Below are positions 1 to 20,686 of a stretch of DNA of 64,000 nt, one piece after another (position 1 is the stretch's first letter; each line of letters opens with the position of its first letter). Under the pieces are notes generated by a model. The model did not search any database. It was not told where the DNA came from and saw only the letters and a list, made by a program, of their open reading frames with translations. Source of the stretch: Sphingosinicella microcystinivorans (lineage in GTDB: Bacteria; Pseudomonadota; Alphaproteobacteria; Sphingomonadales; Sphingomonadaceae); contig NZ_CP116005.1 in assembly GCF_027941835.1 (NCBI RefSeq), positions 1,193,501-1,257,500 of the forward strand, read 5' to 3'. Both the position numbers and the translations under genes were made by a program.

Positions 1-57
1 GCGCAGCGCTACCGCACCAATCCCGCCTGTCGCGCCGATCGGTTTTTCGAAGACTGA
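1..57 (+). CDS. Possible 3' end of an upstream gene (partial)
   Basis: Frame 1 is open from the left edge for 18 codons and ends with TGA at 55-57; the visible tail reads AQRYRTNPACRADRFFED. It is too short to identify and is listed only because the frame is open and ends cleanly just before a gene-poor stretch. It could be chance. Confidence 0.2.
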   Translation, partial: AQRYRTNPACRADRFFED

Positions 58-360
58 ACCAGGCTCAGAAAGCAGCAGGAGAATGCGAAGTTCTGGGCGA
101 GGAGCACAAGCACAGATCAACGTAGGCATGGCCGGGCTCGCGCGCAGCCTCGAACGCGATACACAGATAGAATCGTTCCTCCACCCGCGTGCACGTGAGC
201 TCGGACTCTTCCTGCCATTCGAAGCAAACTGTCCCGTGAGCTATCACACTGGTTCGGGCTCGGCCGGTGGTGAGAGCTCGGGCGACAGCTTTACCGACAA
301 GCCAGATTCCACGGTGGTGCTAAGGCGATGAGACGGTATGGGCGACGCTTGGGTCTGCCT
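58..360. other. Gene-poor stretch, no supported feature
   Basis: About 300 bases before the 3' end of the first NTF2-like gene. Short open frames exist on both strands (for example 83-331 on the plus strand), but none has a convincing ribosome binding site or a recognisable protein. No terminator with a T-run and no tRNA-like fold was seen. Confidence 0.4.
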
Positions 361-759
361 TCAGACGAGCACATTCTTCCCGCTCATGTAGACATATACT
401 TCCTGGAACTTGCCGTCGCGTACACGCCAGAAGTTCGTGTTGAAAAGCTGCGTCACCTCACCATCATGCCCAGTCAAGAGAGCTTCAAAACTGGCACTGA
501 TACGACCGTTCGCAGAATCCACAGTGCACACGAAATCCTTATGCACGATTTCCTTATAGGATCGGAAAAAGTCCTCGAACATTCTCTTGATATCGGCTTT
601 GCCCGCATGGCGGGTAAAGCTGGTCTGGACGGTGAATAATGCTTCGTCGTGAAAACAGGCAAGCGTGCCGTCGAGGTTCTTCGCATCGACACTGGCGAAA
701 TACTTTTGCGTCGCGAGCTGGATCAATCCATCACGGTCGAGCGTGGGCTGATACTGCAT
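361..759 (-). CDS. NTF2-like (SnoaL-type) protein 1
   Basis: A 132-residue protein filling a single NTF2-like cone-shaped fold. It opens with a helical part (QKYFASVDAKNLDGTLACF), has a central helix (IKRMFEDFFRSYKEI) and ends in beta-strands (FQEVYVYMSGKNVLV). It is clearly a paralogue of the next gene upstream, sharing the KYF-x-x-VD-x-KNL start and the VYVYMSG end. Such proteins are either small isomerases, dehydratases or cyclases, or ligand-binding subunits; the substrate is unknown. ATG at 759 overlaps the upstream stop by one base (TGATG) behind a GGGAGA ribosome site, so it is translationally coupled. Last gene of the racemase operon. Confidence 0.8.
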   Translation of the reverse strand: MQYQPTLDRDGLIQLATQKYFASVDAKNLDGTLACFHDEALFTVQTSFTRHAGKADIKRMFEDFFRSYKEIVHKDFVCTVDSANGRISASFEALLTGHDGEVTQLFNTNFWRVRDGKFQEVYVYMSGKNVLV

Positions 760-1196
760 CAGATATCTCCCTTCTTCAGAAGATTGTCACCGCTCATATA
801 GACATAGACGCGATGGAAGAGCCGGTCCTTGAGATAGAAGCGGTTGGCGTTCTCGTACCGCAACTCGCTTCCTCCATTGGGCGTGATGAGCACGGTGAAC
901 TGCGCGTTCACGGCATTGGCCTGTGGATCGGCGGTAATCACGAAATTGCCATGCCAGATATCGGAGAAATCGGCGAAGAGCTTGCGAAACATCGCCGCCA
1001 CACCCTCATCACGGCCGCGATGCACGGTGTTGCTCGTCACCTCGGTCAGCACCGCGTCTTCGGTGAAGCAATTCAGGATCTGGGCGAGATTCTTGTTGTC
1101 GACACCATCGAAATAGCGCTTCGTGACAATGTCGACATAAAAGGGATAGGGTAAGGGCTTGGCACATGGGCCCGCTTCAGTCCAGTTTCCAGACAT
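759..1196 (-). CDS. NTF2-like (SnoaL-type) protein 2
   Basis: A 145-residue NTF2-like protein when started at the ATG at 1196, which overlaps the upstream racemase stop as TGATG. The open frame continues back to a TTG at 1205, but the coupled ATG with GGAAAGG about nine bases before it is preferred. Key stretches are RYFDGVDNKNLAQILNCF and RVYVYMSGDNLL, matching its downstream paralogue. The pair probably arose by tandem duplication and may form a heteromer or act on related intermediates. No catalytic residues can be assigned with confidence. It belongs to the accessory catabolic block and presumably shares its promoter with the racemase gene. Confidence 0.8.
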   Translation of the reverse strand: MSGNWTEAGPCAKPLPYPFYVDIVTKRYFDGVDNKNLAQILNCFTEDAVLTEVTSNTVHRGRDEGVAAMFRKLFADFSDIWHGNFVITADPQANAVNAQFTVLITPNGGSELRYENANRFYLKDRLFHRVYVYMSGDNLLKKGDI

Positions 1197-1939
1197 CAGA
1201 ACCAACCTTTCCGGATTTCGGCATCCTTTGGGACTTCGGGACAGGGATAAGCACGCTTGGAATGGCTCAGCCCTAACTCGATCAGGGTTTCGAGTTGTTT
1301 GTATGCAACGAGACCGGGATTGATCACCGGCACCGGCAATTCGCTGGCAAGATAGTTGGCGGACTGGTGCATCGTGGTGCTGCCCAGCACGATCACGTCG
1401 GCGCCATCTTCCTCGATCGCACGCATCGCTTCCTCCTTGAGCCTGGCAAAGATCACCTCTTCCTTGCCAGCCAGCAGTTCGCTCAGATCCGGTCGCGTGT
1501 TGATCGACCGCACCGAAGCGAGGCGATCGTCGATGCCATATTCCCTGATCGTCTTTTCATAGAGCGGGAACCATTGAGGCCACATGGTGAGCACGGTGAA
1601 CTGCTTGCCCAGCATCATCGCAGCGCAGAAAGCCGCCTCGCCCGGCCCCACGACGGGAATCGACAGGCGGGAGCGCAACGCTCGAAGACCAGAATCGCTC
1701 ACTGTATCGATCAACACGCCCGCATAGCCCTCGCCCTCGGCGCTGACACCAGTCTGGAACACCGTCCAGTCCATGAGAAGCATGTCGTGGTAGCTGTCGC
1801 CAAGCGCCGCCCCCCAGGGCACCGCCACAAATTCGGGTACGAAACCTGAGCGTATCACAGATGGGGGCAATTGCGACGCACGGTTGGCGACGCCGGCGGC
1901 ATCCATCGGAATCGGCACGATGACTTTTATACGTTTCAT
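1196..1939 (-). CDS. Asp/Glu/hydantoin racemase-superfamily protein lacking both catalytic cysteines
   Basis: A 247-residue protein with the two-lobed Asp/Glu racemase fold. The first catalytic region reads IDTVSDSGL, so the usual first cysteine is Thr79; the second reads VLGSTTM, so the usual second cysteine is Ser187. The remaining family features are present, such as IPVVGPGEAAF near residues 94-104. A two-base racemase as in hydantoin or allantoin racemases therefore looks unlikely; isomerase, decarboxylase or binding roles are possible. First gene of a three-gene coupled operon with two NTF2-like proteins, transcribed away from the GntR gene. A TTGTATACAA palindrome at 1973-1982 lies 34 bases upstream of its start. 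Confidence 0.8.
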   Translation of the reverse strand: MKRIKVIVPIPMDAAGVANRASQLPPSVIRSGFVPEFVAVPWGAALGDSYHDMLLMDWTVFQTGVSAEGEGYAGVLIDTVSDSGLRALRSRLSIPVVGPGEAAFCAAMMLGKQFTVLTMWPQWFPLYEKTIREYGIDDRLASVRSINTRPDLSELLAGKEEVIFARLKEEAMRAIEEDGADVIVLGSTTMHQSANYLASELPVPVINPGLVAYKQLETLIELGLSHSKRAYPCPEVPKDAEIRKGWF

Positions 1940-1972
1940 GCTACTGCCCTTCGCTGACCAAATGCAGAATTA

Positions 1973-1982
1973 TTGTATACAA
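1973..1982. promoter_or_regulatory. Candidate GntR operator (TTGTATACAA), site 1
   Basis: Perfect 10-bp palindrome in the 119-bp divergent region between the racemase operon (minus) and the GntR gene (plus). The same TGTATAC core occurs in all main intergenic regions of the block. It is placed to control both the regulator itself and the racemase operon. Confidence 0.6.
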
Positions 1983-2058
1983 AATATCTGGTCAAGTGCG
2001 AAAATAGGCTTATAAAGGAAATAAGAGCCGACAAAAATGAGTACAAAGGAGCTCAACC

Positions 2059-2733
2059 ATGTCCAAAGCTGCCGAACATGCCTATCTTGAAATAAAGTCC
2101 CGTATTCTTTCAGGACTGTTGCAGCCGGGCGTCCAACTCCGGGAAGAAGAACTGGCAGCGCTGTGCGGGGTCAGCCGCACCCCTGTCCGCGACGCACTCA
2201 AACGGCTTGAGGCGGAGTTTTTCATACGCAGGACTGATGCCGCGCGGACCTTCGTCTGCGACTGGTCGCTAGATGACATCGACGAGATGTTCGCACTGCG
2301 CGGGATGTTGGAGGGACATGCAGCAGCGCGTTGTGCGGCGCGGATGGACCGCACCGACCTATGCGAGCTTCAGGCCATCAACGACCGGCTGGCCGAGGCG
2401 CTTAGGACACCCGGAGAGGTGTTCCAGGATTTTCTGCAACTCAATGCCCAGTTTCACAACAAGATACTCGACTCCGCAGGGTCCCATCGTCTTTCGGGTA
2501 TGCTGGGCCGCCTGATCGAACAGCCCGTCGTTCAGCAGACCGCGCGGCAATATGATCGCGCACAGCTTATCCAGAGCCAAACCGAACACGCCGAGCTTCT
2601 TGCCGCCTTTTCGCGGCGCGACGCCGAATGGGCGCGTTCGATCATGATGAGTCACATTCGGCGCGCGTTCCACGCATTCGCCGATAAATTTCAGCAAACC
2701 CGCGTTGCTGTGGCCAACCAAACCCGTCCCTGA
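2059..2733 (+). CDS. GntR-family transcriptional regulator, FCD (FadR) subgroup
   Basis: A 224-residue regulator. The N-terminal winged helix-turn-helix covers roughly residues 8-70, with the typical PGVQLREEELAALCGVSRTP stretch, and is followed by an all-helical FCD ligand domain (about 80-210) carrying candidate metal or ligand residues in FLQLNAQFHNKIL and the late TEHAELL and SHIRRAF histidines. FCD proteins usually repress catabolic genes until a carboxylate inducer binds. It sits divergent from the racemase operon, directly upstream of the metallo-beta-lactamase and TauE genes, and is the only regulator in the block, so it is the likely reader of the GTATAC palindromes. The ATG at 2059 is preceded by AAAGGAG. 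Confidence 0.9.
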   Translation: MSKAAEHAYLEIKSRILSGLLQPGVQLREEELAALCGVSRTPVRDALKRLEAEFFIRRTDAARTFVCDWSLDDIDEMFALRGMLEGHAAARCAARMDRTDLCELQAINDRLAEALRTPGEVFQDFLQLNAQFHNKILDSAGSHRLSGMLGRLIEQPVVQQTARQYDRAQLIQSQTEHAELLAAFSRRDAEWARSIMMSHIRRAFHAFADKFQQTRVAVANQTRP

Positions 2734-2740
2734 GGCATTG

Positions 2741-3658
2741 ATGGTCGACTCATCTCTTTTGAACGCCAGAGCAATCATCGAGTCCGGCCGGGCGGCGCCC
2801 GCACTTGTCCGCACCTTTTTCGACAAGGATACGTTCACCGCCACTCATCTCCTCTGGGACCCGGCCACATACCGGGCGGCAGTGATCGACAGCGTACTCG
2901 ATTTCGACCCCGCCTCCGGCCGCACCGCAACACGCTCTGCCGACGCGGTTATCGCCTGTGTCGCCGAAGAAGACCTCACCGTCGACTGGCACCTGGAAAC
3001 CCATGTCCATGCCGATCATCTTTCGGCTGCGCCCTACCTCAAGGAACGGCTGGGCGGCACGATCGCTATCGGCAAGGATATCGTCACTGTCCAGCGCACG
3101 TTCGGCAAGGTGTTCAACGAGGACACCCGTTTCGCTTACGACGGATCACAGTTCGACCACTTATTCGGCAATGGCGACCGCTTCCGGATTGGGTCGATCG
3201 AGGCAATCGCGCTTCACGTTCCCGGCCACACGCCGGCAGACATGGCGTATGTGATCGGCGATGCAACTTTCGTGGGTGATACGCTGTTCATGCCCGATTA
3301 TGGGACCGCGCGCACCGATTTCCCCGGCGGCAGTGCGCGCCAGCTCTACCGCTCAATTCGGCGCCTGCTCTCGCTGCCCGATGAGACGCGGCTTTTCCTC
3401 TGCCATGACTATAAGGCGGCGGGTCGCGACAACTTCGCCTGGGAGACCACGGTCGCCGCCGAGCGGACGGGAAATATCCATGTCCGCGACGGAACGACCG
3501 AGGACACCTTCGTCACGATGCGCGAAGCACGGGATGCGGCGCTCGGGATGCCCCGCCTGATACTTCCCTCCATCCAAGTCAACATGCGAGCCGGGCGGTT
3601 GCCCGAGCCCGAGGGCAATGGCGTGCACTATCTCAAGCTGCCGATCAACATGTTCTAG
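2741..3658 (+). CDS. Metallo-beta-lactamase-fold protein, persulfide dioxygenase (ETHE1/Blh) type
   Basis: A 305-residue protein starting at ATG 2741, eight bases after the GntR stop; the open frame runs further back into gntR but that part is not family-like. The metal motif THVHADHL is at residues 87-94, followed by VPGHTP, VGDTLF and LFLCHDY ligands. The PDYGTARTDFPGG stretch is typical of persulfide dioxygenases and Blh proteins rather than glyoxalase II or lactonases. Such enzymes oxidise glutathione persulfide to sulfite using one Fe(II). Its neighbour is a TauE/SafE exporter and a DUF442 protein (the usual N-terminal half of Blh) is encoded in the same block, which supports a sulfur-detoxification role. 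Confidence 0.85.
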   Translation: MVDSSLLNARAIIESGRAAPALVRTFFDKDTFTATHLLWDPATYRAAVIDSVLDFDPASGRTATRSADAVIACVAEEDLTVDWHLETHVHADHLSAAPYLKERLGGTIAIGKDIVTVQRTFGKVFNEDTRFAYDGSQFDHLFGNGDRFRIGSIEAIALHVPGHTPADMAYVIGDATFVGDTLFMPDYGTARTDFPGGSARQLYRSIRRLLSLPDETRLFLCHDYKAAGRDNFAWETTVAAERTGNIHVRDGTTEDTFVTMREARDAALGMPRLILPSIQVNMRAGRLPEPEGNGVHYLKLPINMF

Positions 3659-3661
3659 GCA

Positions 3662-4444
3662 ATGATGCTCGAACCTCTCCAGTATGCGCTTGGCGCCGTC
3701 TCGGGCTCGTTGGTAGGCTTCATCCTAGGGCTGATCGGGGGTGGGGGCTCGATCCTCGCAGTACCGCTGATGGTCTATCTGGTGGGTGTTCCCAATCCGC
3801 ATATCGCGATCGGTACAAGTGCGCTCGCGGTCGCGGTCAACGCCGGTATCAACCTTATCGCTCACGCGCGCACGCGCGCCGTCAAATGGCAGTGCGCGAG
3901 CATCTACGCCGCGGCAGGCATGATTGGCGCCTATTTCGGGTCGAGTGCAGGCAAGGTTTTCGACGGGCATCGCCTGCTCTTCCTGTTCGCGCTGCTGATG
4001 ATCGCGGTGGGCGTGTTGATGCTGCGAAAGCGTAGCGACTCCGGCAATCCCGATGTGGAATGCCAACGCCATAATGCTCCCAAGGTAATCGTTTATGGTA
4101 GTATGACCGGCTTGTTTTCTGGCTTTTTCGGTATTGGCGGCGGCTTCTTGATCGTACCCGGGCTGATAGCCGCGACAGGGATGCCGATGATCAACGCGAT
4201 CGGATCTTCGTTGGTCGCGGTGACCGTGTTCGGGTTCACCACCGCGATCAATTATGCCGCGTCCGGCCTCGTCGACTGGCCGCTCGCCGTTGTCTTCATC
4301 GCTGGCGGCATCGCCGGCGGCATTGCAGGCATCTTCGCGTCACGCAGGCTTTACACTCGAAAAGGCGCGCTCAATCTCGTATTCAGCGGCATGATCTTCA
4401 TGGTGGCAGCCTATATCATCTTCGACTTCATCACAAAGCCCTGA
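3662..4444 (+). CDS. TauE/SafE-family sulfite or organosulfur exporter
   Basis: A 260-residue membrane protein with about eight hydrophobic segments arranged as two homologous halves; each half begins with a glycine-rich segment (GFILGLIGGGGSILAVP and GLFSGFFGIGGGFLIVP), the TauE signature. Start is ATG 3662, two bases after the upstream stop (a second ATG follows at 3665). Members export sulfite, sulfoacetate or related anions. Paired with a persulfide dioxygenase it would remove the sulfite produced. Its 3' end overlaps the convergent amidohydrolase gene by 14 bases. Confidence 0.85.
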   Translation: MMLEPLQYALGAVSGSLVGFILGLIGGGGSILAVPLMVYLVGVPNPHIAIGTSALAVAVNAGINLIAHARTRAVKWQCASIYAAAGMIGAYFGSSAGKVFDGHRLLFLFALLMIAVGVLMLRKRSDSGNPDVECQRHNAPKVIVYGSMTGLFSGFFGIGGGFLIVPGLIAATGMPMINAIGSSLVAVTVFGFTTAINYAASGLVDWPLAVVFIAGGIAGGIAGIFASRRLYTRKGALNLVFSGMIFMVAAYIIFDFITKP

Positions 4445-5081
4445 TCGCCGCGATCTTGTCCAGCAGCAGCGCCGAGGAGACGACATCGGCATATTTCTGG
4501 TCGAGATCGAAAAGATTCTGGCGATGGACGACCGGATCGCGATCGGCCGAGGCATCGTCTGCCACCAGTGCGCGAAAACCGTAACACAGCGCATCGAGTG
4601 CGGACGCGCGCACGCAGCCCGACGTGGAAAAGCCAGTGACGACGCAAGTATCGCACCTCAGCGCGTGCAGCGTCGAGGCGAGGCTCGTGCCGAAAAACGC
4701 ACTGGGATATTGCTTGGTAATCACCAGATCGCCGCGAAACGGTGTCAGCCGAGGATCGAAGTCGCCGAGCGGGTTTCCCTCGTCAAAACAGGCGAGCGCG
4801 CGCACGCGGCGATAGAACAGTCCCCCGTTGGTACCGCCGGGCTGGTAGAGGACGCGGGTAAAGACCACCGGCAGTTCCGCCGCACGAAAAGCATCGGCAA
4901 GCGTGATATTGACCGCGAGTGCGGCTTCTCCTGTTGTGAGGTAGAGGGGGGATTCCGGCACCAGATAGGCCCGCGCTACATCGACAATGATAAGCGCCGG
5001 GTGCTGGCCAAGGCCAAGCGTACCGCCAAAGCCCGCCCGGGCATAGTCGGCGGACAACGCTTTACCTTCCTCTACACTCAT
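4431..5081 (-). CDS. Isochorismatase-superfamily amidohydrolase, N-carbamoylsarcosine amidase-like
   Basis: A 216-residue cysteine hydrolase. The catalytic triad is visible as Asp34 (IIVDVARAY), Lys123 (VITKQYPSAFFGT) and Cys156 (TSGCVRASALDA). The YARAGFGGTLGLGQHPAL leader and the PESPLY stretch resemble N-carbamoylsarcosine amidase more than nicotinamidase or isochorismatase. Those enzymes cleave N-carbamoyl amino acids to amino acid, CO2 and ammonia, exactly the product type of an ATP-dependent N-methylhydantoinase, and a hydantoinase A/B pair lies in the same block. Its start codon abuts the stop of the CoA-transferase gene with no gap. The true substrate is an inference. Confidence 0.75.
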   Translation of the reverse strand: MSVEEGKALSADYARAGFGGTLGLGQHPALIIVDVARAYLVPESPLYLTTGEAALAVNITLADAFRAAELPVVFTRVLYQPGGTNGGLFYRRVRALACFDEGNPLGDFDPRLTPFRGDLVITKQYPSAFFGTSLASTLHALRCDTCVVTGFSTSGCVRASALDALCYGFRALVADDASADRDPVVHRQNLFDLDQKYADVVSSALLLDKIAAIRAL

Positions 5082-6272
5082 CTAGATCACGCCCTCCTCG
5101 CGCAACGCCTCCATCTCGGTGTTGCTCATACCGAGCAGGCCGCCATAGATTTCTTCATTATGTGCGCCGATCATGGGGCCCGGCCAAGCGATTTCGCCCG
5201 GCGTCTCGGACAGCTTGGGAAACACCGACTGCATCACCAGATTACTGAATTCGGGATGTGCCACCTTCACCAGCGCCTCGCGCGCTGTGAACTGCGGATC
5301 AGCCAGCATGTCGTCGGCACGATATATCTTGCCAGCGGGCACGCCCCCGGCATCGAGCAGCACGAGAAGATCGGCTGTCTTGAATCCACGCGTCCATTCG
5401 GAGATCAGCGCATCGAGTTCCTCCTGATGTTCGCCCCGCGCGGCATGGTCCGCGTAGCGTGGATCGACCGCAAGCTCCGGCCTACCCATCGTGTCAGCCA
5501 ACCGCGACCAGACCGAGTCCTGATTGGCGCCGATCAATATCTCGCCATCGGTGCAAGGATAGACATTGGACGGCGCGATCTTGGGCAGGATAGAGCCGGT
5601 GCGCTCGCGGATGAGCCCGGCCTCTGTATATTCGGGCACAGTCGATTCCATCACCGCCAGCACCGATTCATAAATGGCGGCGTCGACCACCTGTCCCTCT
5701 GCGGTGACATGACGCCGATGAAGGGCCATCAGTGCGCCAAGGCAGGCGAAGGTCGCGGCGAGCGAGTCCCCGATCGAAAGCCCGATCCGTGATGGAGGGG
5801 TGGAGGGATCGCCGGCAAGATAGCGCATCCCGCCCATCGCCTCGCCAATCGAGCCATAGCCCGCGCGGCCGGCATAGGGGCCCGTCTGACCAAAGCCCGA
5901 CACACGCACCATGATCAGGCCCTTGTTGATCGCGCGGAGCTCCTCGTAGCTGAGATTCCATTTCTCAAGGGTGCCAGGCCGGAAATTCTCAAGCAGGAAA
6001 TCGGCATTCTTCAGGAGGCGACGGACGATATCCTGACCTTTGGCAGAGCGCAGGTTGAGCGTGATGCATTTCTTGTTGCGACCCACAACCGGAAACCAGA
6101 CAGGCTTGCCCTGTCCCCACTGACGCATCGGATCGCCCTGACCCGGCAATTCGATCTTGATCACCTCGGCGCCATGATCGGCCATGAGCTGGCCACAGAA
6201 AGGACCAGCGATAAGCTGTCCCATTTCGATCATCCGAAGTCCAACAAGGGCTCCGTGCCTATTTTCAGCCAT
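5082..6272 (-). CDS. Class III CoA-transferase (CaiB/BaiF family)
   Basis: A 396-residue protein with the family's interlocked-ring fold. Near the start MIEMGQLIAGPFCGQLMADHG and VIKIE are typical, and the catalytic aspartate is Asp169 in LSIGDSLAATFA. The mid-region NLRSAKGQDIVRRLLKNADF and ENFRPGTLEKW are also characteristic. It moves CoA between carboxylic acids, so an acid intermediate of the pathway is probably activated as a thioester; alpha-methylacyl-CoA racemase is the other activity in the family. ATG at 6272 is preceded by AGAGGAGAG. A 99-base gap separates it from the upstream DUF442 gene; downstream it is fused head to tail with the amidohydrolase gene without spacing. Confidence 0.88.
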   Translation of the reverse strand: MAENRHGALVGLRMIEMGQLIAGPFCGQLMADHGAEVIKIELPGQGDPMRQWGQGKPVWFPVVGRNKKCITLNLRSAKGQDIVRRLLKNADFLLENFRPGTLEKWNLSYEELRAINKGLIMVRVSGFGQTGPYAGRAGYGSIGEAMGGMRYLAGDPSTPPSRIGLSIGDSLAATFACLGALMALHRRHVTAEGQVVDAAIYESVLAVMESTVPEYTEAGLIRERTGSILPKIAPSNVYPCTDGEILIGANQDSVWSRLADTMGRPELAVDPRYADHAARGEHQEELDALISEWTRGFKTADLLVLLDAGGVPAGKIYRADDMLADPQFTAREALVKVAHPEFSNLVMQSVFPKLSETPGEIAWPGPMIGAHNEEIYGGLLGMSNTEMEALREEGVI

Positions 6273-6371
6273 TGTCTCTCCTCTGTTTGGAAGACAGCTG
6301 AGCGCCCGCCCGATTCGTCCTGTGCATAATCGGGGTGAAGGAAGAGCCGCTCATGTGAAGCCCCCGCGTCT

Positions 6372-6791
6372 CTAAACGAACCCCAAGCCGCTCATCTTGC
6401 TCAGATCGATCTTCGCCCGGCTCACCGCCTCGATCGCATCGGCGCGATCTTCGGGTTCGGCAGCGAGCACCCACATCGCCGCAGCGCGCATTCCCGAACG
6501 GCAGAAAGCAAGCACCTTGCCCCCACCCGCTCGGCCCAGCGCCTCGCGAAAGGCGTCAACCGACGGTTCGGTCCATTTCCCCGCAACAACCGGGATATGG
6601 ATATAGTCTATCCCGTGTACGGCCAGCGCCTGGCCGACCGAAGCGCTTCCAGGCTGACCTTCCTCCTCTCCGTCCGGGCGGTTGTTGATAACGAGTGTAA
6701 AGCCCTGTGCGGCGATCCCGGGGAGGTGATCGGGCAGGAGCTGGCCACACACCGTAAAGCTGGGCGCGATCTCGACGAGCTGGGGCGACAT
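6372..6791 (-). CDS. DUF442 phosphatase-like protein (stand-alone Blh N-terminal domain)
   Basis: A 139-residue protein with a dual-specificity-phosphatase-like fold; the P-loop reads CRSGMR at residues 97-102, matching the CRTGTR-type loop of TIGR01244/DUF442 proteins. In many bacteria this domain is fused to the N-terminus of a persulfide-dioxygenase (Blh); here it stands alone about 2 kb from such a gene and in another operon. It may have rhodanese-like sulfurtransferase or phosphatase activity. The ATG at 6791 with an AGAGAG ribosome site is preferred to the TTG at 6815 that overlaps the upstream stop. Confidence 0.75.
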   Translation of the reverse strand: MSPQLVEIAPSFTVCGQLLPDHLPGIAAQGFTLVINNRPDGEEEGQPGSASVGQALAVHGIDYIHIPVVAGKWTEPSVDAFREALGRAGGGKVLAFCRSGMRAAAMWVLAAEPEDRADAIEAVSRAKIDLSKMSGLGFV

Positions 6792-6811
6792 GTTCTCTCT
6801 GTTCCCGGAGC

Positions 6812-7618
6812 TCAACCGATCGGGTGACGCGCCATCCAGTCGGTGAGCACGTCGACTGTCTCCTGCGGCTTCTCGATCATGTAGAATGTACCGCCGCAGC
6901 CTGCGATAAGCGCTGTTTCAACATCGCCCGCGATCCCCTGCTCGACCTGTCGGATCGCATGTTGGTTGGCCTCGTTACCGGCCACGCCGACATCGCCCAT
7001 CAGAAGTAGCGTCGGACAACTGATCTTGGGAAGATCGGAGCTGCGGTCGCTGACCTTCATCCCAGCCCACAGGGCGCGAAACGCCTCCGGATCGAGATTG
7101 GCGCACAGCGTAGAGGATTCCCACTCTCCCATTTCCTTGGTCATGTGAGGTGAACTGAAGCGCTCGACGATGATCTTTGACCAGAATTCCAGGGAATCGA
7201 ACGCATAGGAGAGTTCGACGCCAGCATCAAAAACGTGCTTGATCGTGCGTTTCGGGCTGTACCAAGGGAAAAGGATGAGGCTCGCTGTGCGGTCCGGATA
7301 GTCCGCCGCGAACTTGACGGCGATATGGCTGCACGCGCAACCCCAGATATGTGCCTTTTCAACCCCGGCATCATCCATGATCGCCAGCAGGTCGGCCGCC
7401 TGGTCGGCATAGTCGGCATAGTGCACTTCGGGCAAGGGGCGCGACTTGCCTACCCCCCGGAAATCCCAGTTCAGCACTGATGCCTTTTCCTTGAGGAGCG
7501 GGGTCACATAATCGAACTGGTTGGACACAAGCCCGATCCCACCGATGCAGGCGATGGTGTCACCGCTGCCTTCAACTTCGTACCAGAGCTTCGCCCCATT
7601 TGCCTCTACGATCGGCAT
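6812..7618 (-). CDS. Alpha/beta-hydrolase-fold protein 1, catalytic triad absent
   Basis: A 268-residue protein that follows the alpha/beta-hydrolase layout: oxyanion-type turn (CIGGIGLVSNQFDYV), DFRGVGKS turn, nucleophile elbow after a strand (HIWGCACSHIA) and a C-terminal cap and helix. At the nucleophile position, however, Ala95 replaces serine, Gly211 stands where the acid is expected (MGDVGV), and Gly243 stands where the histidine is expected (GCGGTFYMIE). The paralogue at 10164-10970 has the same losses. It is therefore not an ordinary serine hydrolase; Cys96, Ser97 or a non-covalent mechanism are alternatives. It lies between the TonB receptor gene and the DUF442 gene, 21 and 20 bases away. 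Confidence 0.82.
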   Translation of the reverse strand: MPIVEANGAKLWYEVEGSGDTIACIGGIGLVSNQFDYVTPLLKEKASVLNWDFRGVGKSRPLPEVHYADYADQAADLLAIMDDAGVEKAHIWGCACSHIAVKFAADYPDRTASLILFPWYSPKRTIKHVFDAGVELSYAFDSLEFWSKIIVERFSSPHMTKEMGEWESSTLCANLDPEAFRALWAGMKVSDRSSDLPKISCPTLLLMGDVGVAGNEANQHAIRQVEQGIAGDVETALIAGCGGTFYMIEKPQETVDVLTDWMARHPIG

Positions 7619-7639
7619 ATTCTATCTCCTGAAACCAGA

Positions 7640-10099
7640 TTAGAAACGTACCTTGCCCTCGACACCCACCAATCGGTGCGCGCCCTGGAAAATGAAGGCG
7701 CCGCCGAACTCTGGCGCCGGAATGACTTCGCGTAGATATTTCTTGTTGAAAAGATTTTGGGCGAATAGCGTGATTCCCCAGTTTTCCATCTCGAAGCCTG
7801 CACGCAAATTTGTGGTATGATAGGCGTCCCGGCGCGTCTTGCCCATGTCGGAAGGCACGCCATTGAGCGTCGGCGAGAGACCGTGGACAACATGGAACCA
7901 CGTCGGCCCGGTCATCTGCCAATCCAACCGCGCGCGGAAGTCAATGTCCGACGTGACGGGCAACACGAGGTCGCCGCCCGCATTCAGCGTATACTTGGGC
8001 GCGTAAGGAATGGGCACACCTTCCGTGCCGACGCGAGTCGTGTTCTTGACGACCTTGGTGTCCATGAGGTTAGCCCCCGCATAGAGGGAGAACGCCTGCG
8101 ACACCTTGTAGTTCGCATTGAGTTCGACACCCGCTGCGCGCGCCTTGTCGATGTTGGTTACCTGGCGGAGCAGGCCGAAGGCGCCGACGAAGAACTCGAA
8201 GAACTGCATGTTCTTGATCTCGGTCCAGTATACCGAACCGTCAGCGGTAAGGCGGCCGCCGAGCGTATTGGCCTTGAAGCCCGCCTCGAACGCGCTGCTG
8301 GTCTCTTTCTTGAAACTGTCCTGCACATTGATCGTGGCGCCCAACGGTTCGTTGAGAAACAGATCAATCGTTGCCTTGCTTCCCTGGCTGTTGAAGCCGC
8401 CGCTGCGGAAACCCACACCCCAGCTTCCGAACAGCGTCAGCTCGCGGGAGGCATCCCACGTCACACTGATCTTCGGCTGGAGCTGCTCGAAGGTTCTCTT
8501 CTGGTCGGGCAATACGCCCGCAGGATTAATTGCAGGATTGAGGCCCGGATTGAGCGGCGCGCCGCCGATAAATGGACCGCCATCGAAGACGATGTAGCGC
8601 GTGCGAGCATCGGTCGGCACCAGGTTATGGACCTTGCGTTTCTCACGGTCGTAGCGCAGCGCTGCGGAAAATTCGAGTTCAGGCGTAAGGTCATAGGAAG
8701 CCTGACCGAACACGGCATAAACTTTGCTGTCGTATTTGTCCCAGGACAGCGCTTCCGTCGGGCTGCTAGACGACGGTGCGTTGTAGAGGGAGCGAATGAT
8801 CGGCCCGCCAGTGTCGATGCCTTGGGCTACCCCCACCTCACGATTGATATCGAGGAAATAGAGGCCTGCGACCCAGTCAAACGCATTGTTGCCGCTTGAT
8901 CCCAGACGAATCTCGAAACTCAGATCCTTCTGGTTGCGGACCTGATATTGATAGCCATCGCAGGTTGTGGGTGTGGTCGGGCCAAAAATCGACGTTTCAG
9001 GCGTCGGCCCCAGCGCCTGCGGGCCGGGCAGAACAAAGCCCGCATCGTAGAGCGCAGCCGTCGAAGCGCGGCAAGACGGCTCCTGAAAGAAGAATCCGAA
9101 GCCGCCGCTGGTGCCGTCCGCCAGCCATTCGTTCCGGATGTTGCTATAGAGCACCCAGGCGTTCAGCAGAACCGTGTCGAATTCATGCGTCAGCTTGATC
9201 GACGCATCAAATGAGTCCTGGATGTTGGACGGATCGACATTGGCGACAAACTCATATTTCTTGTGATCGTTGACGTCTTCGAAGAAAAGCGGATTGTCGA
9301 GGAAGTCGGCGAAAGCGGGAAGCGCGAAGGCAGCGTTGAAGCTCGCTGGCCCCGCCGAGACATGACCGACATGGATCTTGGCGTCTATTTCGGTTCCGCC
9401 ACCCGTCCAGACGAGACGACCGTCGAAGTTATAGCCCTCGTAGTCGTCGACTACTCTGGCGTTCAGATAGCGATTCCTGAAGAAGCCATCGGTTGTGCGG
9501 TAGTCCGCGTGGAGGCTCGCGGCTAGGCTTCCCGGGACAATCGGCAGGTTCAAGGTTGCCGAGGCGAAGTAGCTGTTGTGCTCGCCTCCCGAAGCCTTGG
9601 CCTCGAAGCCCAATTCGTCGCCGGGCTTGTTGGTCGTGATGATGAATGCGCCCGCCGAGGCATTGCGGCCATAGAGCGCGCTTTGCGGACCTTTCAGAAC
9701 CTCGATCTGACGCAGATTGGCATATTCGCGGTTGAGCGCGGCCGGATTGGTCATAACGATACCATCGACGATCAGCGCGTAGCTGTTCTCTGTATCTTTG
9801 GCACCGTTTATGCCGCGAATGCTGACCTGAGTATCACCGACTTCGGCCGTCTGGACCAGAGACACGCCGGGCGTCAATCGAATGAAATCCTCCGCCCGCA
9901 CGACGCCTGCCGTCTCAAGCATGTCCTGCGTCAGCGCAGTAACAGTCGCGGGAACATCCTGAAGGCGCTCGCTCATTTTTCGCGCCGTGACAATGATCGC
10001 CCCACTGTCATCGAGCGGTTCCTGCTCTTGTGCGCGGGCCGTTCCCGTGAGCGCAAGAGCCGCCACACCGGTAAGAAAAAATTGAGAGCTTCTCTTCAT
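7640..10099 (-). CDS. TonB-dependent outer-membrane receptor
   Basis: An 819-residue receptor starting at ATG 10099; the frame continues upstream but the signal peptide starts here (MKRSSQFFLTGVAALALTG, cleaved near ARAQ). A TonB-box-like strand (GAIIVTARK) is followed by the plug domain (DVPATVTALTQDMLE, LTPGVSLVQ, ISIRGI-type strand) and a 22-strand barrel ending in a terminal phenylalanine (GVEGKVRF). Sphingomonads use such receptors for many aromatic and heterocyclic carbon sources. Sandwiched between two alpha/beta-hydrolase-fold paralogues in one operon, it is probably the uptake route for the substrate of this block. Confidence 0.92.
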   Translation of the reverse strand: MKRSSQFFLTGVAALALTGTARAQEQEPLDDSGAIIVTARKMSERLQDVPATVTALTQDMLETAGVVRAEDFIRLTPGVSLVQTAEVGDTQVSIRGINGAKDTENSYALIVDGIVMTNPAALNREYANLRQIEVLKGPQSALYGRNASAGAFIITTNKPGDELGFEAKASGGEHNSYFASATLNLPIVPGSLAASLHADYRTTDGFFRNRYLNARVVDDYEGYNFDGRLVWTGGGTEIDAKIHVGHVSAGPASFNAAFALPAFADFLDNPLFFEDVNDHKKYEFVANVDPSNIQDSFDASIKLTHEFDTVLLNAWVLYSNIRNEWLADGTSGGFGFFFQEPSCRASTAALYDAGFVLPGPQALGPTPETSIFGPTTPTTCDGYQYQVRNQKDLSFEIRLGSSGNNAFDWVAGLYFLDINREVGVAQGIDTGGPIIRSLYNAPSSSSPTEALSWDKYDSKVYAVFGQASYDLTPELEFSAALRYDREKRKVHNLVPTDARTRYIVFDGGPFIGGAPLNPGLNPAINPAGVLPDQKRTFEQLQPKISVTWDASRELTLFGSWGVGFRSGGFNSQGSKATIDLFLNEPLGATINVQDSFKKETSSAFEAGFKANTLGGRLTADGSVYWTEIKNMQFFEFFVGAFGLLRQVTNIDKARAAGVELNANYKVSQAFSLYAGANLMDTKVVKNTTRVGTEGVPIPYAPKYTLNAGGDLVLPVTSDIDFRARLDWQMTGPTWFHVVHGLSPTLNGVPSDMGKTRRDAYHTTNLRAGFEMENWGITLFAQNLFNKKYLREVIPAPEFGGAFIFQGAHRLVGVEGKVRF

Positions 10100-10163
10100 G
10101 AGACGTACCTTCCCCCCTGATTTTCGTTTGGTCACACCGTCTGAATTATCGAGCAGCCAACGC

Positions 10164-10970
10164 TCAGCGCGCCGGATGACGCGTCATCCAGTCCGCCAGA
10201 GCAGCGACGGTTTCCTCGGGCCGCTCGATCATGAAATAAGTACCGCCGCTGTCGGCGACGAGCCTCGACTCGAAATCGCCCTTGACAGCGTTGCGTACCT
10301 TCTCGATTTCACGCCGATTTGCCTCTGAACCGGCAACGCCGGCATCACCCATCAGCAACAACACGGGCGCCTGCACCTTCGGCAGGTCACAGCTCCGGTC
10401 GCTGTCCTTCATCGAACTCCAGTGGATCCGGAACATTTCCGGAGACAGGTTACCGAGGAGTTTCGGTACCTCCCAATCGACCATCTTGGCCTTGTAGTTC
10501 TCCGTCGTGAATTTCGTTGCAATGACCTTCGCCCAATACTCAAGCGAATTGAAAGCGAGTGACAACTCGACGCCCGCATCGAAGATATGGCTGATCGTCT
10601 TCTTGGGACTATACCACGGGAAAAAGATCAGGCTCGCCGTCCGCTCCGGATATTTTGCTGCAAAGCGTACCCCGATGTGACTGCAGGCGGCTGCCCATAT
10701 GTGCGCCTTTTCGATCCCCGCAGCATCCATCACCGCCAAAAGATCCTCGGCCTGATCGGCATAGTCGTCGTAATTGACCTGCGGCACAGGCATCGACTTG
10801 CCAACTCCCCGCAGATCCCAGTTGATCACCTTGGCCTGGCGCGCGAGCAGCGGCGTGACGAAATCAAACTGATTGGATACCAGCCCCATTCCGCCAATGC
10901 AGACGATAGGTTCGCCCGCACCTTGAACATCATACCAGATTTGCGCGCTATTCGATTCCACTGTGGGCAT
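10164..10970 (-). CDS. Alpha/beta-hydrolase-fold protein 2, catalytic triad absent
   Basis: A 268-residue paralogue of the protein at 6812-7618, identical in length when started at ATG 10970 behind GGAGGGAG. Shared stretches include VSNQFD, VTPLL, WDLRGVGKS and the DYADQAEDLLAVMD helix. The nucleophile elbow reads IWAAACSHIG, so Ala95 replaces the serine; the histidine position is Gly243 (DSGGTYFMIE) and the acid position is also glycine (MGDAGV). Conservation of the fold with loss of the same residues in both copies argues for a shared special function rather than decay. First gene of the six-gene minus-strand operon, 64 bases ahead of the TonB receptor gene; two GTATAC palindromes lie upstream. 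Confidence 0.82.
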   Translation of the reverse strand: MPTVESNSAQIWYDVQGAGEPIVCIGGMGLVSNQFDFVTPLLARQAKVINWDLRGVGKSMPVPQVNYDDYADQAEDLLAVMDAAGIEKAHIWAAACSHIGVRFAAKYPERTASLIFFPWYSPKKTISHIFDAGVELSLAFNSLEYWAKVIATKFTTENYKAKMVDWEVPKLLGNLSPEMFRIHWSSMKDSDRSCDLPKVQAPVLLLMGDAGVAGSEANRREIEKVRNAVKGDFESRLVADSGGTYFMIERPEETVAALADWMTRHPAR

Positions 10971-11007
10971 TCGAGACTCCCTCCAAGGCGACTCCATTGA
11001 GTCAATT

Positions 11008-11015
11008 TGTATACA
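11008..11015. promoter_or_regulatory. Candidate GntR operator (TTTGTATACATT), site 2
   Basis: TGTATACA core palindrome with AT-rich flanks, 38 bases upstream of the alpha/beta-hydrolase 2 start, where a bound repressor would block transcription of the uptake operon. Confidence 0.55.
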
Positions 11016-11268
11016 TTTCTACAGATGGCGTCAATAGATCACCTGAGAAAAATCCCTTTCAACTCTCAAGACGCGATTTTCTTGAAGAGGCTTCCAGCAA
11101 CGTTCATGATTGCAGGAGCTACCTTTGCATATCGCATATAATTCTGCAGAATCTGGCGCGCCCGTTCCACGGGACCACAACCTGTCCGTCCGCCTTTGAG
11201 CGTGCCGCTGCGCCTTTGGCAGGAGACCCGCATTCAGATCCTCGCCCTACCTTTACGCAGGTATATAA

Positions 11269-11276
11269 TGTATACA
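11269..11276. promoter_or_regulatory. Candidate GntR operator (AATGTATACACT), site 3
   Basis: TGTATACA core palindrome 254 bases upstream of site 2's centre-to-core neighbour, just beyond the hyuB stop codon. It could be an auxiliary operator that loops with site 2. Confidence 0.45.
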
Positions 11277-11289
11277 CTCCAGCCTATTA

Positions 11290-13146
11290 TTACCAGACAG
11301 GTTGGCGCGGCGCGGTCAGGCCGGTTTCAGCGAAACACGCAGCACGCAGTGTCTCGATGTCAGCGCCGAAATTGAACACACCCAGGCTCGCCGGGCGCTC
11401 GGCACGCATTCTGGTGCGCAGCACCTCGGTCGCACTGGCATCGACATTGCCATCAGCCGCTATCACAACCCCAAATCGGCGCGCGCCTTCGACGGTAACA
11501 AGACCCTGCCTGATTTCCTTCGCTATCAGTTCCGGATCACGGTCGAGCGGATCTCCCCAGCCACCGCCACCCCAAGTGATGAAATGGAGTTGATCTCCCG
11601 CCTCAACCTCAAGTCGGTCGATCTTGTTGGGAACAATAGTCTGCGTCCCGTCCGGCCTTTCGTGAATCTTGCGCGCCCGCGCACCCGGATCACCCCCGTT
11701 TACGCCCCAGGGATAGGTGAACCAGCGATCGTCATGAATCGAGACGACGCCTGAGGCGAGGAAGCGGTAGCTCATCAGAATGCCGTTGCCACCACGGTGG
11801 AGCCCGGCTCCGCCAGTGTCGGCGAGCGCCTCGTAGCGCTCGATCCGCAGCGGGAAATAGCGTTCGAGAAATTCATTGGGAACATTGGTGAAACCTGGCC
11901 ACAACGAGTGGCCATCGGGCCCGTCACCGAGCGGACGGCCGGGAATGCCGCCGAAACCGATCTGGAAGAGCTGGAACCAGTTCCCTTCCGCCTCGCGGCC
12001 GGAATACATGAGGTGGGGGCTCGAAGAGAAGCCCGCGGCGTTCAGGAATTCGGGGGTACGCTGACCGAGCAGCCCACCAAGAATATCGAAGATACGCCCG
12101 AGAGCGTGCGTGCGCCCGGACAACGCTGCGGGAAACTTTGGCTTGAGCAGTGAACCTTCAGGAATCCGCACCTCAATCAAGTCGTAGAAACCATCATTGA
12201 ACAATATCTGCGGATCAAAGACCATGATCATGTAAATTCCAAAGAACATTTTGAACATGTTCTCGTTAAGATAAAAGTTGATCGATGCGTTCGATTGTGG
12301 GTCGGTTCCCGCGAAATCGAGCACGACACGTTCGCCCTCGCGCCACATGGAACAGCGGATTCGATAGGGACCATAGCCAATCCCGTCGTCACAGATATAA
12401 TCTTCGAATGAGACCGGCTCCTCACCTATCGAACTCTGGATCAGCGCTTTCATCGCGCGATGGTTGCGATCGAGCAATGCCTGGGTTGCAGACACATACA
12501 CATCATCGCCGAAGCGATCGCATAGCTCGTTGACACGCCGTGCAGCGACGCGGCACGAGGCGATCAGCGCATTGAGATCGGCAGCGCACCAGTCGGGCTT
12601 GCGCGTCTGGTGCATGACAAGACGGACGAGATCGTCGTTGCGCTCGCCACGACGGAAAATCTTCACTGGCGGAATCCGAACGCCTTCTTCGAAGATGCTG
12701 TGCGCGTCGATCGGCATACTACCCGCGACCTTGCCGCCTATGTCGGACTGATGGCCGAACATGGCCGTCCAAGCCACCAGACGTCCGACATGAAAGACAG
12801 GCAGAAGAACCAGCCAGTCGTTGCTGTGCGAGATCGCACCCTCGCAACTATACGGATCGGACAGGAAGATCATATCTCCCTCCTCGATCGTTCCATCATA
12901 GCCCTTGAGGAAACCATCGATGAAACTGCCAAACTGGCCGACGATCATTTTACCTTGGCGATCGGCGATCAGTGGGAACGCATCCCCCTGTTCGCGGATG
13001 CCGGGAGAGATCGCGGTGCGCACCAGCGTCGCGTCCATCTCGACACGCGCATTTCGAAGCGCATTTTCAATCAGGTCGAGCGTTACCGGATCAATTGCCG
13101 TCGGAACGAAAGGAACGGAGTTTTCCTCGATGATATGGGTGGGCAT
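11290..13146 (-). CDS. hyuB: Hydantoinase B / oxoprolinase beta-subunit family protein
   Basis: A 618-residue protein of the HyuB/oxoprolinase-B/acetone-carboxylase-alpha family. It begins with AIDPVTLDLIENALRNARVEMD, has DPYSCEGAISHSNDW (family DPY-GG-TH region) and ends with the glycine-rich WGGGGWGDPLDRDP signature. With the HyuA subunit encoded just upstream (ten-base gap) it should form an ATP-dependent cyclic amide hydrolase such as N-methylhydantoinase or 5-oxoprolinase; acetophenone- or acetone-carboxylase-like activity is an alternative. The presence of a carbamoyl-amidase-like gene in the block favours the hydantoinase reading. Confidence 0.9.
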   Translation of the reverse strand: MPTHIIEENSVPFVPTAIDPVTLDLIENALRNARVEMDATLVRTAISPGIREQGDAFPLIADRQGKMIVGQFGSFIDGFLKGYDGTIEEGDMIFLSDPYSCEGAISHSNDWLVLLPVFHVGRLVAWTAMFGHQSDIGGKVAGSMPIDAHSIFEEGVRIPPVKIFRRGERNDDLVRLVMHQTRKPDWCAADLNALIASCRVAARRVNELCDRFGDDVYVSATQALLDRNHRAMKALIQSSIGEEPVSFEDYICDDGIGYGPYRIRCSMWREGERVVLDFAGTDPQSNASINFYLNENMFKMFFGIYMIMVFDPQILFNDGFYDLIEVRIPEGSLLKPKFPAALSGRTHALGRIFDILGGLLGQRTPEFLNAAGFSSSPHLMYSGREAEGNWFQLFQIGFGGIPGRPLGDGPDGHSLWPGFTNVPNEFLERYFPLRIERYEALADTGGAGLHRGGNGILMSYRFLASGVVSIHDDRWFTYPWGVNGGDPGARARKIHERPDGTQTIVPNKIDRLEVEAGDQLHFITWGGGGWGDPLDRDPELIAKEIRQGLVTVEGARRFGVVIAADGNVDASATEVLRTRMRAERPASLGVFNFGADIETLRAACFAETGLTAPRQPVW

Positions 13147-13156
13147 GGTGCGTTCC

Positions 13157-15205
13157 TCAAGCGGGCGTGATCAGGAGATTGCCGAAATCATCGACCTCGG
13201 CGACATGACGGGCGTGAATGAGCGTGGTGGAATCCATCTCGACCAGGATCGCCGGCCCTTTGATGCTGTCGCCCGCCAGCAGCTTGCCGCGGTCGTAAAT
13301 AATTGCAGGCTGAGCACAGCCGTCCATCCACAACATATGGTCGCGCAACTTGGCCCGTGCCGGATTACCGTCGCCGCGTTCGAGCGGACGTGCCACAAGG
13401 TCAAGCACGGGCCCCAAGGCTGCCACGCGCAGGTTTACGAGTTCGTGCTCGCTTGCCATGTTGAATGTGAACAGCCGATGATGCTCTTCATCGAAGCGCC
13501 GCGTGATCCCTGCGATGCTATCGCGCGCAAGCGTTTCGCGATCGATGGTCAGGGGTACCTCAAACGCCTGCCCCGCATAGCGCACATCTATCTCGAACTC
13601 GGTGGTGACGTCGCCCACGGCGACGCCCTCGGCGATCAGCGTCGCACGTGTCTGCTCCTGCATTTCGTCGAGCAGCGACAGGATTTCCGCTTCGCCGGTT
13701 TGACTTGCACGCTTGGAGAACGAGCGCGCGGTCTCCGTTCGCATCCGTGTCGTCGCATCTCCCAGCGCACACAACACGCCCGGGGAAATCGGTGAGACGG
13801 CGGGCCACGACTGCATCAGCGCTGCCACGGCGTTAACGTGAAGCGGCCCGGCGCCACCGAAGCCCATCAGTGCGAAATCGCGCGGATCATAGCCCTGCTG
13901 GACAGAGACCAGCCGCAGCGCGCCGAACATATTTTCGTTAACGATCGCAATGATCCCGGCGGCAGCCTCCATTAAGGGCAGATCGAGCGTATCGGCGATC
14001 TTCTGCACCGATCGCGCTGCGGCTTGGCGGTCGAGTTGAAAACTTCCACCCAACAGATTTTCGGGCAGATAGCCGAGAACGACGTTGGCATCTGTCACCG
14101 TAGGCTCGATGCCACCCTTGCCGTAGGCAACCGGGCCGGGCGCAGCACCCGCCGACTGCGGCCCGACACGCAGTGCTCCGGTCAGTTCGGGGACATAGGC
14201 GATTGATCCACCGCCTGCACCGACCGTCTTGACGTCAAGCGATGAAGCGCGGACTGACAGGTGGCCGACGTCTGTCGTGCGTACACGCCGCGGCTCCAGA
14301 TTTTCGATCAATGCGACATCAGTCGAGGTCCCGCCGACATCAAGGGTCAATATGTTGCGCAGGCCGGCATTTCGCGCGACCCACAGCGCTCCTGCAACGC
14401 CGCCGGCAGGGCCCGACATTAACAGCGAGACTGGCTGTTCCTCGGCCTTTTCCGAACTCATCAAACCGCCATCCGAGCGCAGCAGCGCGGTGCGTCCCTG
14501 CATCCCCACACCGCGCAGGTTGTCGCGCAGGTTGCGGACATAGCGGCCGACCACAGGGCGCACGGAAGCGTTGGCCACAGTGGTGAGCGTGCGCTCGTAT
14601 TCCTGCATCTCAGGCAAGATCTCATGGCTGAGCGACACCGGCACATCCGGCATGATTTCGCGGGCAAGCGCCCCCACCATCTGCTCGTGCCGCCCATCGA
14701 CGTAGCTATTGATGAGCGCAACCGTTACGGCCTCGACACCCGAGGCCTTGAGACTTTCGAGGGTACGCCGAATCTCGGCCTCGTCGAGTGGACGGACTTC
14801 CTCGCCGTAAGCGCTGAGTCGCCCCTCAATCTCATAGGTATCCTCCAGTGCAGCAAGCGGTTCAGGCTTCGGCCAAACAATCCAACCGGCGAGACCACCC
14901 GGCACAAGGCTACGCGCAATCTGGAGAACATGGCGATATCCGCGCGTGACGACGAGCCCTACGCGCGCGCCTTTGCCTTCTAGAACAGCATTGGTAGCGA
15001 CGGTGGTGCCGTGGAGCAGCACCTCGACCTGCTCCGGACTTATCCCCGCCTGACAACAGATGGCGTGAACGCCGTCTAGGATACCATGGCTGCTGTCATC
15101 AGGCGTCGAGGGGGTCTTGTGACGCCAGAAAGAGCCTGAGTCTTCGTCGAACAGAAGCAGATCGGTGAAGGTCCCCCCCACATCCACGCCCAACCGGTAC
15201 CCCAT
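13157..15205 (-). CDS. hyuA: Hydantoinase A / oxoprolinase alpha-subunit family protein
   Basis: A 682-residue ASKHA-fold ATPase. The N-terminal phosphate loop reads RLGVDVGGTFTDLLLF; HGTTVATNAVLEGKGARVGLV and a second conserved block LLMSGPAGGVAGALWVA are hallmarks of HyuA. It activates the amide oxygen of the substrate with ATP for ring opening by HyuB. The ATG at 15205 is used here; the frame extends one codon further to a TTG. A GGGGTGA stretch precedes it. Transcribed with hyuB as a two-gene unit whose promoter must lie in the AT-rich region at 15206-15700, which carries two GTATAC palindromes. Confidence 0.9.
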   Translation of the reverse strand: MGYRLGVDVGGTFTDLLLFDEDSGSFWRHKTPSTPDDSSHGILDGVHAICCQAGISPEQVEVLLHGTTVATNAVLEGKGARVGLVVTRGYRHVLQIARSLVPGGLAGWIVWPKPEPLAALEDTYEIEGRLSAYGEEVRPLDEAEIRRTLESLKASGVEAVTVALINSYVDGRHEQMVGALAREIMPDVPVSLSHEILPEMQEYERTLTTVANASVRPVVGRYVRNLRDNLRGVGMQGRTALLRSDGGLMSSEKAEEQPVSLLMSGPAGGVAGALWVARNAGLRNILTLDVGGTSTDVALIENLEPRRVRTTDVGHLSVRASSLDVKTVGAGGGSIAYVPELTGALRVGPQSAGAAPGPVAYGKGGIEPTVTDANVVLGYLPENLLGGSFQLDRQAAARSVQKIADTLDLPLMEAAAGIIAIVNENMFGALRLVSVQQGYDPRDFALMGFGGAGPLHVNAVAALMQSWPAVSPISPGVLCALGDATTRMRTETARSFSKRASQTGEAEILSLLDEMQEQTRATLIAEGVAVGDVTTEFEIDVRYAGQAFEVPLTIDRETLARDSIAGITRRFDEEHHRLFTFNMASEHELVNLRVAALGPVLDLVARPLERGDGNPARAKLRDHMLWMDGCAQPAIIYDRGKLLAGDSIKGPAILVEMDSTTLIHARHVAEVDDFGNLLITPA

Positions 15206-15466
15206 CAACTCACCCCTTTTCCTGGAATATCAACCACTCTCGATCCGAGACCTCTTGCATTGTCCGAGTTCGTCAGCATCTTGTTATCGTAACGATTCCG
15301 ACATCGGCCGTTTCGAAACAGGCGCCGAGTTGGCCGAGGCCTGTCACGATGCACCGGGCCCGGCGCCCAAGTTCCGCAAATTATGGACGGCATCTATTTC
15401 GTCCTCAGAAAATTCGTAGACTCTCCAGGGGGCCACCGCAGACCGACCCACAGAATCCTTCATGAG

Positions 15467-15480
15467 ATTTGTATACAAAT
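15467..15480. promoter_or_regulatory. Candidate GntR operator (ATTTGTATACAAAT), site 4
   Basis: The best copy: a perfect 14-bp palindrome, 262 bases upstream of the hyuA start. It defines the likely consensus for the other four sites. Confidence 0.65.
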
Positions 15481-15655
15481 TTTAATGCCGCACAAGAGGA
15501 GGAAACGAATCTCCTCTCAATTTTCGGCTTCGGGGTTGGTCGAAAACTTTACGCATATAGGGACAGGCCGTTAGGAAATCCGGGCAATTTGAGCTAGTTT
15601 AAAGCCTAATCGAACTGCCCCGCCCTTTGCGTCCCTCTCTTTATAAATTCAATTT

Positions 15656-15663
15656 TGTATACT
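15656..15663. promoter_or_regulatory. Candidate GntR operator (TTTTGTATACTC), site 5
   Basis: A GTATAC core with a good left flank and a degenerate right flank, about 180 bases beyond site 4. Possibly an auxiliary site for hyuAB. Confidence 0.4.
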
Positions 15664-15895
15664 CTGGCAGTGCAAATACCATTTCCGCCTTGTCAGGAAG
15701 GACGAAGCTGCCACTCGAAACAAACCGCTTGATTGAAGAAGACTTTTCCTCCGAACGGCTGCTTTAGAGCGCCTGCCGAATAGGGAACTGAACCGTCCCT
15801 TGAGAGGGAATTCCGATCAACGTGTCGATTTGCCCACTCGACCAAGTGCCAATCTAAAGTTCGATTCGCAAATTATAATGATGGTGCTTTATGGA

Positions 15896-15979
15896 ACCGG
15901 AGCGCAGCGTACTTACAGTACGTGAGCACCGGAAGCGCAGAAAGCCGCCGTTTGCAGCCCGCCATGGGCGGAATGGCGG
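15896..15979. repeat. Structured repeat at the accessory/core border
   Basis: Two near-identical words, ACCGGAGCGCAG (15896-15907) and ACCGGAAGCGCAG (15928-15940), flank a hairpin made of CGTACT and AGTACG with a 3-base loop (15908-15922). A second hairpin follows: CCGCCAT (15959-15965) and ATGGCGG (15973-15979) with a 7-base loop. There is no T-run, so it is not an ordinary terminator. It resembles a REP-like or element-end sequence; only one copy was noticed in this window. Confidence 0.45.
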
Positions 15980-20673: not shown

Positions 20674-20686
20674 GAACGGACCCGTC

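Follow-up and report, generated by a model that had tools for sequence, protein, structure and literature searches.

The question raised by this locus is what a pair of alpha/beta-hydrolase-fold proteins might do once the catalytic triad of the fold is gone. Two genes pose it within the 64,000-nucleotide stretch of Sphingosinicella microcystinivorans DNA that was analysed (the window). ABH-A (6812 to 7618, minus strand) and ABH-B (10164 to 10970, minus strand), called A and B below, each encode a 268-residue protein of this fold without the triad, and they flank a TonB-dependent receptor gene (7640 to 10135, minus strand), from which they are 28 and 21 bp away. The initial annotation described this pair of paralogues around the receptor gene, and its coordinates and lengths are confirmed. 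We consider it likely that A and B arose by duplication within a small PcaD/esterase-type subfamily, which has lost its triad in steps and has been kept for the catabolic pathway of a genomic island.

The two paralogues and their active sites

The two proteins are 62% identical and align without gaps. The frame of B has an alternative start at 10997 that would give 277 residues; the Met at 10970 corresponds to the start of A. A comparison of the two genes gives a dN of about 0.29 and a saturated dS; A and B have thus both been under strong purifying selection. The scan for promoters and terminators gave results at chance level.

Both proteins match Abhydrolase_1 in Pfam, at 29.8 and 37.4 bits against a cut-off of 25.8. 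The nearest named family in NCBIfam is PcaD (TIGR02427), for which the 54.1 bits of A and the 47.8 bits of B miss the cut-off of 255.85. Neither protein belongs to the NDRG family (PF03096) by the Pfam scan, where A, at 15.3 bits, stays under the cut-off of 23.3 and B is not listed, and the same scan has no match of A or B to DUF3530 (PF12048) or DUF687 (PF05095) at E 0.01.

The AlphaFold2 model of B, built from 27 sequences (pLDDT 90.4, pTM 0.91), is predicted to be a complete alpha/beta-hydrolase fold. Superposition of this model on PcaD (PDB accession code: 2xua) with VIA-align gives Z 31.3 and 2.1 Å over 252 residues, and searches with Foldseek and VIA-align return full-length matches to PcaD, esterases and haloperoxidases (Z about 28 to 31 over about 255 residues). 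The earlier statement that fold motifs and length are well kept is borne out by this structural check, which had been proposed along with it.

The triad positions are another matter. In the MAFFT alignment the nucleophile position, residue 95, is Ala in both A and B, and HMMER aligns this Ala95 with the Ser of GVSMGG in solved esterases. The acid position is Gly211 in both proteins and Asp in all 24 other homologues aligned from other alphaproteobacterial genomes; the histidine position is Gly243 in both and, in the same alignment, His in 24 of 24. The three substitutions named in the initial annotation thus hold, with one addition: the histidine loop of A and B is longer by one residue, so that Thr244, which HMMER aligns with the His of Est816, matches the lost histidine as well as Gly243 does. 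The nucleophile elbow, in turn, is one residue short of G-x-S-x-G-G (GCACS- in A, AAACS- in B). Counting from the strand, the nucleophile corresponds to residue 95; counting from the helix, to residue 94, which is Cys in A and Ala in B. The earlier reading of GCACS and AAACS as replacements of G-x-S-x-G was right that the serine is gone, but had missed the shortening. Since the nucleophile-His-acid triad of serine hydrolases is absent, A and B cannot, judged by their residues, be ordinary serine hydrolases.

Could a Ser-His-Asp set have moved elsewhere, the possibility against which the initial annotation had set its own reading? In the alpha/beta-hydrolase superfamily the acid can shift to the end of strand 6 (PMC11878206). 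The alignment has no acid after beta-6 (residues 114 to 124) in A, in B or in P0003, the one distant relative described below, and none after beta-7 in A and B either. There is also no His between residues 239 and 262, the strand-8 loop, in A or B, and no other Ser-His-Asp set is visible in the two sequences. A different relocation would have hydrolysis carried out by Cys96 or Ser97 in the short elbow together with a histidine or acid of the cap (e.g., His98, His128), and C96, S97, H98 and H128 are indeed identical in A and B. As a set, however, these four residues are not kept in P0003, nor are the four histidines common to A and B (H90, H98, H128, H265) kept there as a set. Cys96-Ser97-His98 is common to A and B only, and P0003 has T-G/S at the first two of these positions, so the conservation of Cys96-Ser97 claimed earlier is a property of the pair and does not extend to its relative. 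In addition, the elbow helix begins at residue 97 in the model of B, and the sequence alignment assigns the usual nucleophile to residue 94 or 95. With the acids after beta-6 and beta-7 missing as well, we regard such a relocated catalytic set as improbable.

Relatives and the order of loss

A and B are the only members of their kind in the host genome. No relatives are found in the five other genomes of the genus, nor among the genomes drawn from the order (396), the family (397) and the phylum (398), sets which overlap. A class-wide draw of 385 genomes yields one full-length relative, P0003, in an alphaproteobacterium (genome G799), with 33% identity and E 7e-44; when the class search was repeated from G799, the same genomes were drawn. 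Pattern scans give no relative either, whether of 84,980 species genomes (with P0002 and with the A/B alignment) or of viral contigs; they depend on exact short motifs, which distant relatives could escape. Plasmid searches with P0002 and P0003 return only ordinary hydrolases, by score and by annotation. As covered by these searches, the subfamily comprises three sequences: A, B and P0003.

What P0003 has kept is informative. Its model is confident (pLDDT 93.0) and its nucleophile motif is a normal G-T-S-T-G, while it shares with A and B the Gly at the acid position and Gly-Gly-Thr at the histidine position. In the maximum-likelihood tree, computed with the catalytic columns included, A, B and P0003 form one clade with support 100/100. 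This clade, together with the serine kept in P0003, means that the triad was lost once, in steps, and that A and B both inherited the loss; on the strength of the tree we reject an independent, parallel loss in the two. In the simplest history the acid and the histidine would have been lost first, in the common ancestor of the three; the nucleophile serine and one residue of the elbow would have followed, and the gene would then have been duplicated to give A and B. The initial annotation spoke of selection retaining the proteins without a classical triad and of a lost triad conserved in parallel; dN/dS, alignment and tree agree with the former, whereas the latter amounts to shared ancestry.

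Among other homologues the nucleophile can be missing by itself. One (L024, 1495 to 2289) has G-L-A-L-G at this position and another (L038, 1501 to 2301) has G-M-V-G-M-G, and both keep Asp and His.

The triad loss might also be neutral decay of a hydrolase no longer needed on a recently acquired island. Decay would fit the composition of the island discussed below, which marks it as recent, and the lack of the pair in other genomes of the genus. Both frames are intact, however, dN stays near 0.29 against a saturated dS, and the shared loss of acid and histidine predates the split from P0003; decay is accordingly a very improbable account. The full-length frames of 268 codons, these dN and dS values and the recurrence of Gly211 and Gly243-Thr244 in a distant relative argue that the loss in A and B is more than chance.

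The island, its gene order and a possible function

Positions 1 to 15900 of the window belong to a low-GC stretch (58%, against 69% elsewhere in the window and chromosome) that runs on past the upstream edge of the window for a few kb (L049, 14200 to 19354). On its left side are an IS21 pair, a partial tyrosine recombinase and a large serine recombinase, adjoining a PEP carboxylase gene. The stretch looks like a horizontally acquired island, and such an acquisition would explain the absence of A and B from close relatives.

The catabolic neighbours of A and B, besides the TonB receptor, are encoded on the same strand. A HyuB-type hydantoinase/oxoprolinase subunit, caprolactamase beta-like (11290 to 13146, minus strand), and a HyuA-type subunit, caprolactamase alpha-like (13157 to 15208, minus strand), lie on one side. 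A family III CoA-transferase (5082 to 6272, minus strand) and an isochorismatase-family cysteine amidohydrolase resembling RutB and biuret amidohydrolase (4431 to 5081, minus strand; Asp-Lys-Cys motifs by inspection) lie on the other. From HyuA/HyuB and the amidase we infer that the island substrate would be a cyclic amide, imide or ureide. The most likely reading is a lactam- or hydantoin-type catabolic island with A and B as non-hydrolytic pathway proteins.

Sulfur genes are present as well. A Blh-type sulfur transferase/phosphatase-like domain (6372 to 6815, minus strand, with a TTG start as listed) overlaps the stop of ABH-A, and a block on the opposite strand within the island (2059 to 4444, plus strand) holds a GntR/FCD regulator, a Blh-type persulfide dioxygenase domain of the MBL fold and a TauE/SafE exporter. 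The two halves of the bifunctional Blh are separate genes here, on opposite strands (6372 to 6815, minus; 2705 to 3658, plus), and with the TauE exporter also present this suggests that the island substrate may release sulfide. Outside the island, about 10 kb from A and B, are egtB and egtD (19447 to 21679, plus strand); G799 likewise has an egtB some 12 kb away from P0003 (L045, 12256 to 13599), perhaps by coincidence. An ergothioneine-degradation island, as HyuAB, the sulfur genes and the nearby egtBD might indicate, was considered and set aside: among those genes of the island that were inspected, neither an ergothionase nor a thiourocanate hydratase was seen, and the literature on this idea gave nothing usable.

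The next question is whether the neighbourhood of P0003 tells the same story. In G799, a homologue of the Asp/Glu/hydantoin racemases and two SnoaL-like genes come after P0003 on its strand. The window has these three genes in the same order at 1939 to 361 on the minus strand: the racemase homologue (1196 to 1939), 75% identical to the gene beside P0003, and two SnoaL-like proteins (759 to 1205 and 361 to 759), 57% and 61% identical to their counterparts in that row. The higher conservation of this block and its shared order suggest a link between the hydrolase-fold protein and a defined set of partners, namely the racemase homologue and the two SnoaL-like proteins. In the window A and B are about 5 to 9 kb from the block, with genes of the opposite strand between, an arrangement that weighs against the pathway reading.

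The racemase homologue has itself lost both catalytic cysteines, with Thr and Ser (IDTVSDSG, LGSTTMHQ) at the corresponding positions of hydantoin racemase 3qvj. Both cysteines are likewise absent in the aligned members of its subfamily on plasmids of Novosphingobium, Rhizobium, Tistrella and Neorhizobium. In Neorhizobium petrolearium the plasmid that carries this racemase subfamily has it alongside HyuA, HyuB and a cysteine hydrolase, a row which supports a common type of pathway. The full set there (L054, 3673 to 11427) comprises HyuB, HyuA, the cysteine hydrolase, two racemase homologues, and PrpD-like, PEP-mutase-like and FAD oxidoreductase genes.

How might A and B serve such a pathway? 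Most probably each would bind, in what was once the active-site pocket, an intermediate of the pathway such as a ring-opened amide, ureide or enol(ate). Backbone NH groups and residues new to the pocket would then promote a non-covalent step (isomerisation, lyase or hydratase type). We put non-hydrolytic catalysis of this kind at a little under an even chance, a role in ligand binding alone or as a partner subunit somewhat lower, and residual or relocated hydrolysis low indeed, although the serine kept in P0003 means that some residual chemistry could matter.

The partner role has a specific form, in which A and B are ligand-binding or scaffold subunits, possibly as an A/B heterodimer, for HyuA/HyuB, the amidase or another enzyme of the island. 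Complete loss of the triad, as in NDRG proteins (PMC7022630), the presence of a paralogous pair within one gene row and the purifying selection on both members would all fit it. P0003, on the other hand, is a single copy with no HyuA or HyuB in the stretch read around it, so that neither a heterodimer nor a HyuAB partner can be a family-wide need. We hold this form to be a real but minority possibility. Because P0003 stands in a compact metabolic gene row, a non-hydrolytic pathway step is preferred over a pure scaffold. Of the non-hydrolase functions first proposed, a lyase and a binding partner are plausible, but A and B are unlikely to carry ligands in the periplasm for the TonB receptor, as inspection of the N-termini of A and B finds no recognisable signal peptide. 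We suggest tentatively that A and B represent an undescribed subfamily of triad-free lyases, isomerases or substrate-handling proteins. Their partners in a mobile pathway for a cyclic amide or ureide would be the two SnoaL-like proteins and the racemase homologue devoid of both catalytic cysteines.

Comparison with known systems

The closest known proteins are PcaD, the 3-oxoadipate enol-lactonase (2xua; TIGR02427), and the esterases Est1 (6eb3) and Est816 (5egn), with which A and B share the whole fold and length and which are their best matches both in structure (2xua, Z 31.3) and among sequence families. PcaD, Est1 and Est816 all have Ser-Asp-His triads. A and B differ from them in having no triad and a shortened elbow, and in scoring far under the PcaD cut-off.

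Loss of the triad has precedents. In the NDRG family, including human NDRG3, the alpha/beta-hydrolase fold is kept and the triad is wholly replaced by non-reactive residues (PMC7022630); complete substitution is what A and B have in common with these proteins, which, unlike A and B, are eukaryotic signalling proteins. DUF3530 and DUF687 are bacterial triad-less proteins of the fold that have been argued to be non-enzymatic (PMC11878206), but their neighbourhoods, LptD-linked and membrane-linked, differ from that of A and B. Serine-independent carboxy-lyases and cofactor-free enzymes of the fold carry out non-hydrolytic chemistry without the nucleophile serine (PMC11878206). The Ser-less carboxy-lyases and cofactor-free dioxygenases keep an acid-His dyad, however, and A, B and P0003, having neither dyad residue, fall outside this group. 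On bacterial triad-less hydrolases the literature search returned general reviews only.

Triad-less members of the fold are thus already known (NDRG, DUF3530, DUF687 and others), and A and B are a new variant among them. Such members are otherwise mostly eukaryotic signalling proteins or orphan families. In the present pair, which is bacterial, the successive losses from the active site can be put in order, with acid and histidine early and nucleophile later, and can be tied by synteny to a pathway, so that the function of a triad-less alpha/beta-hydrolase fold becomes testable.
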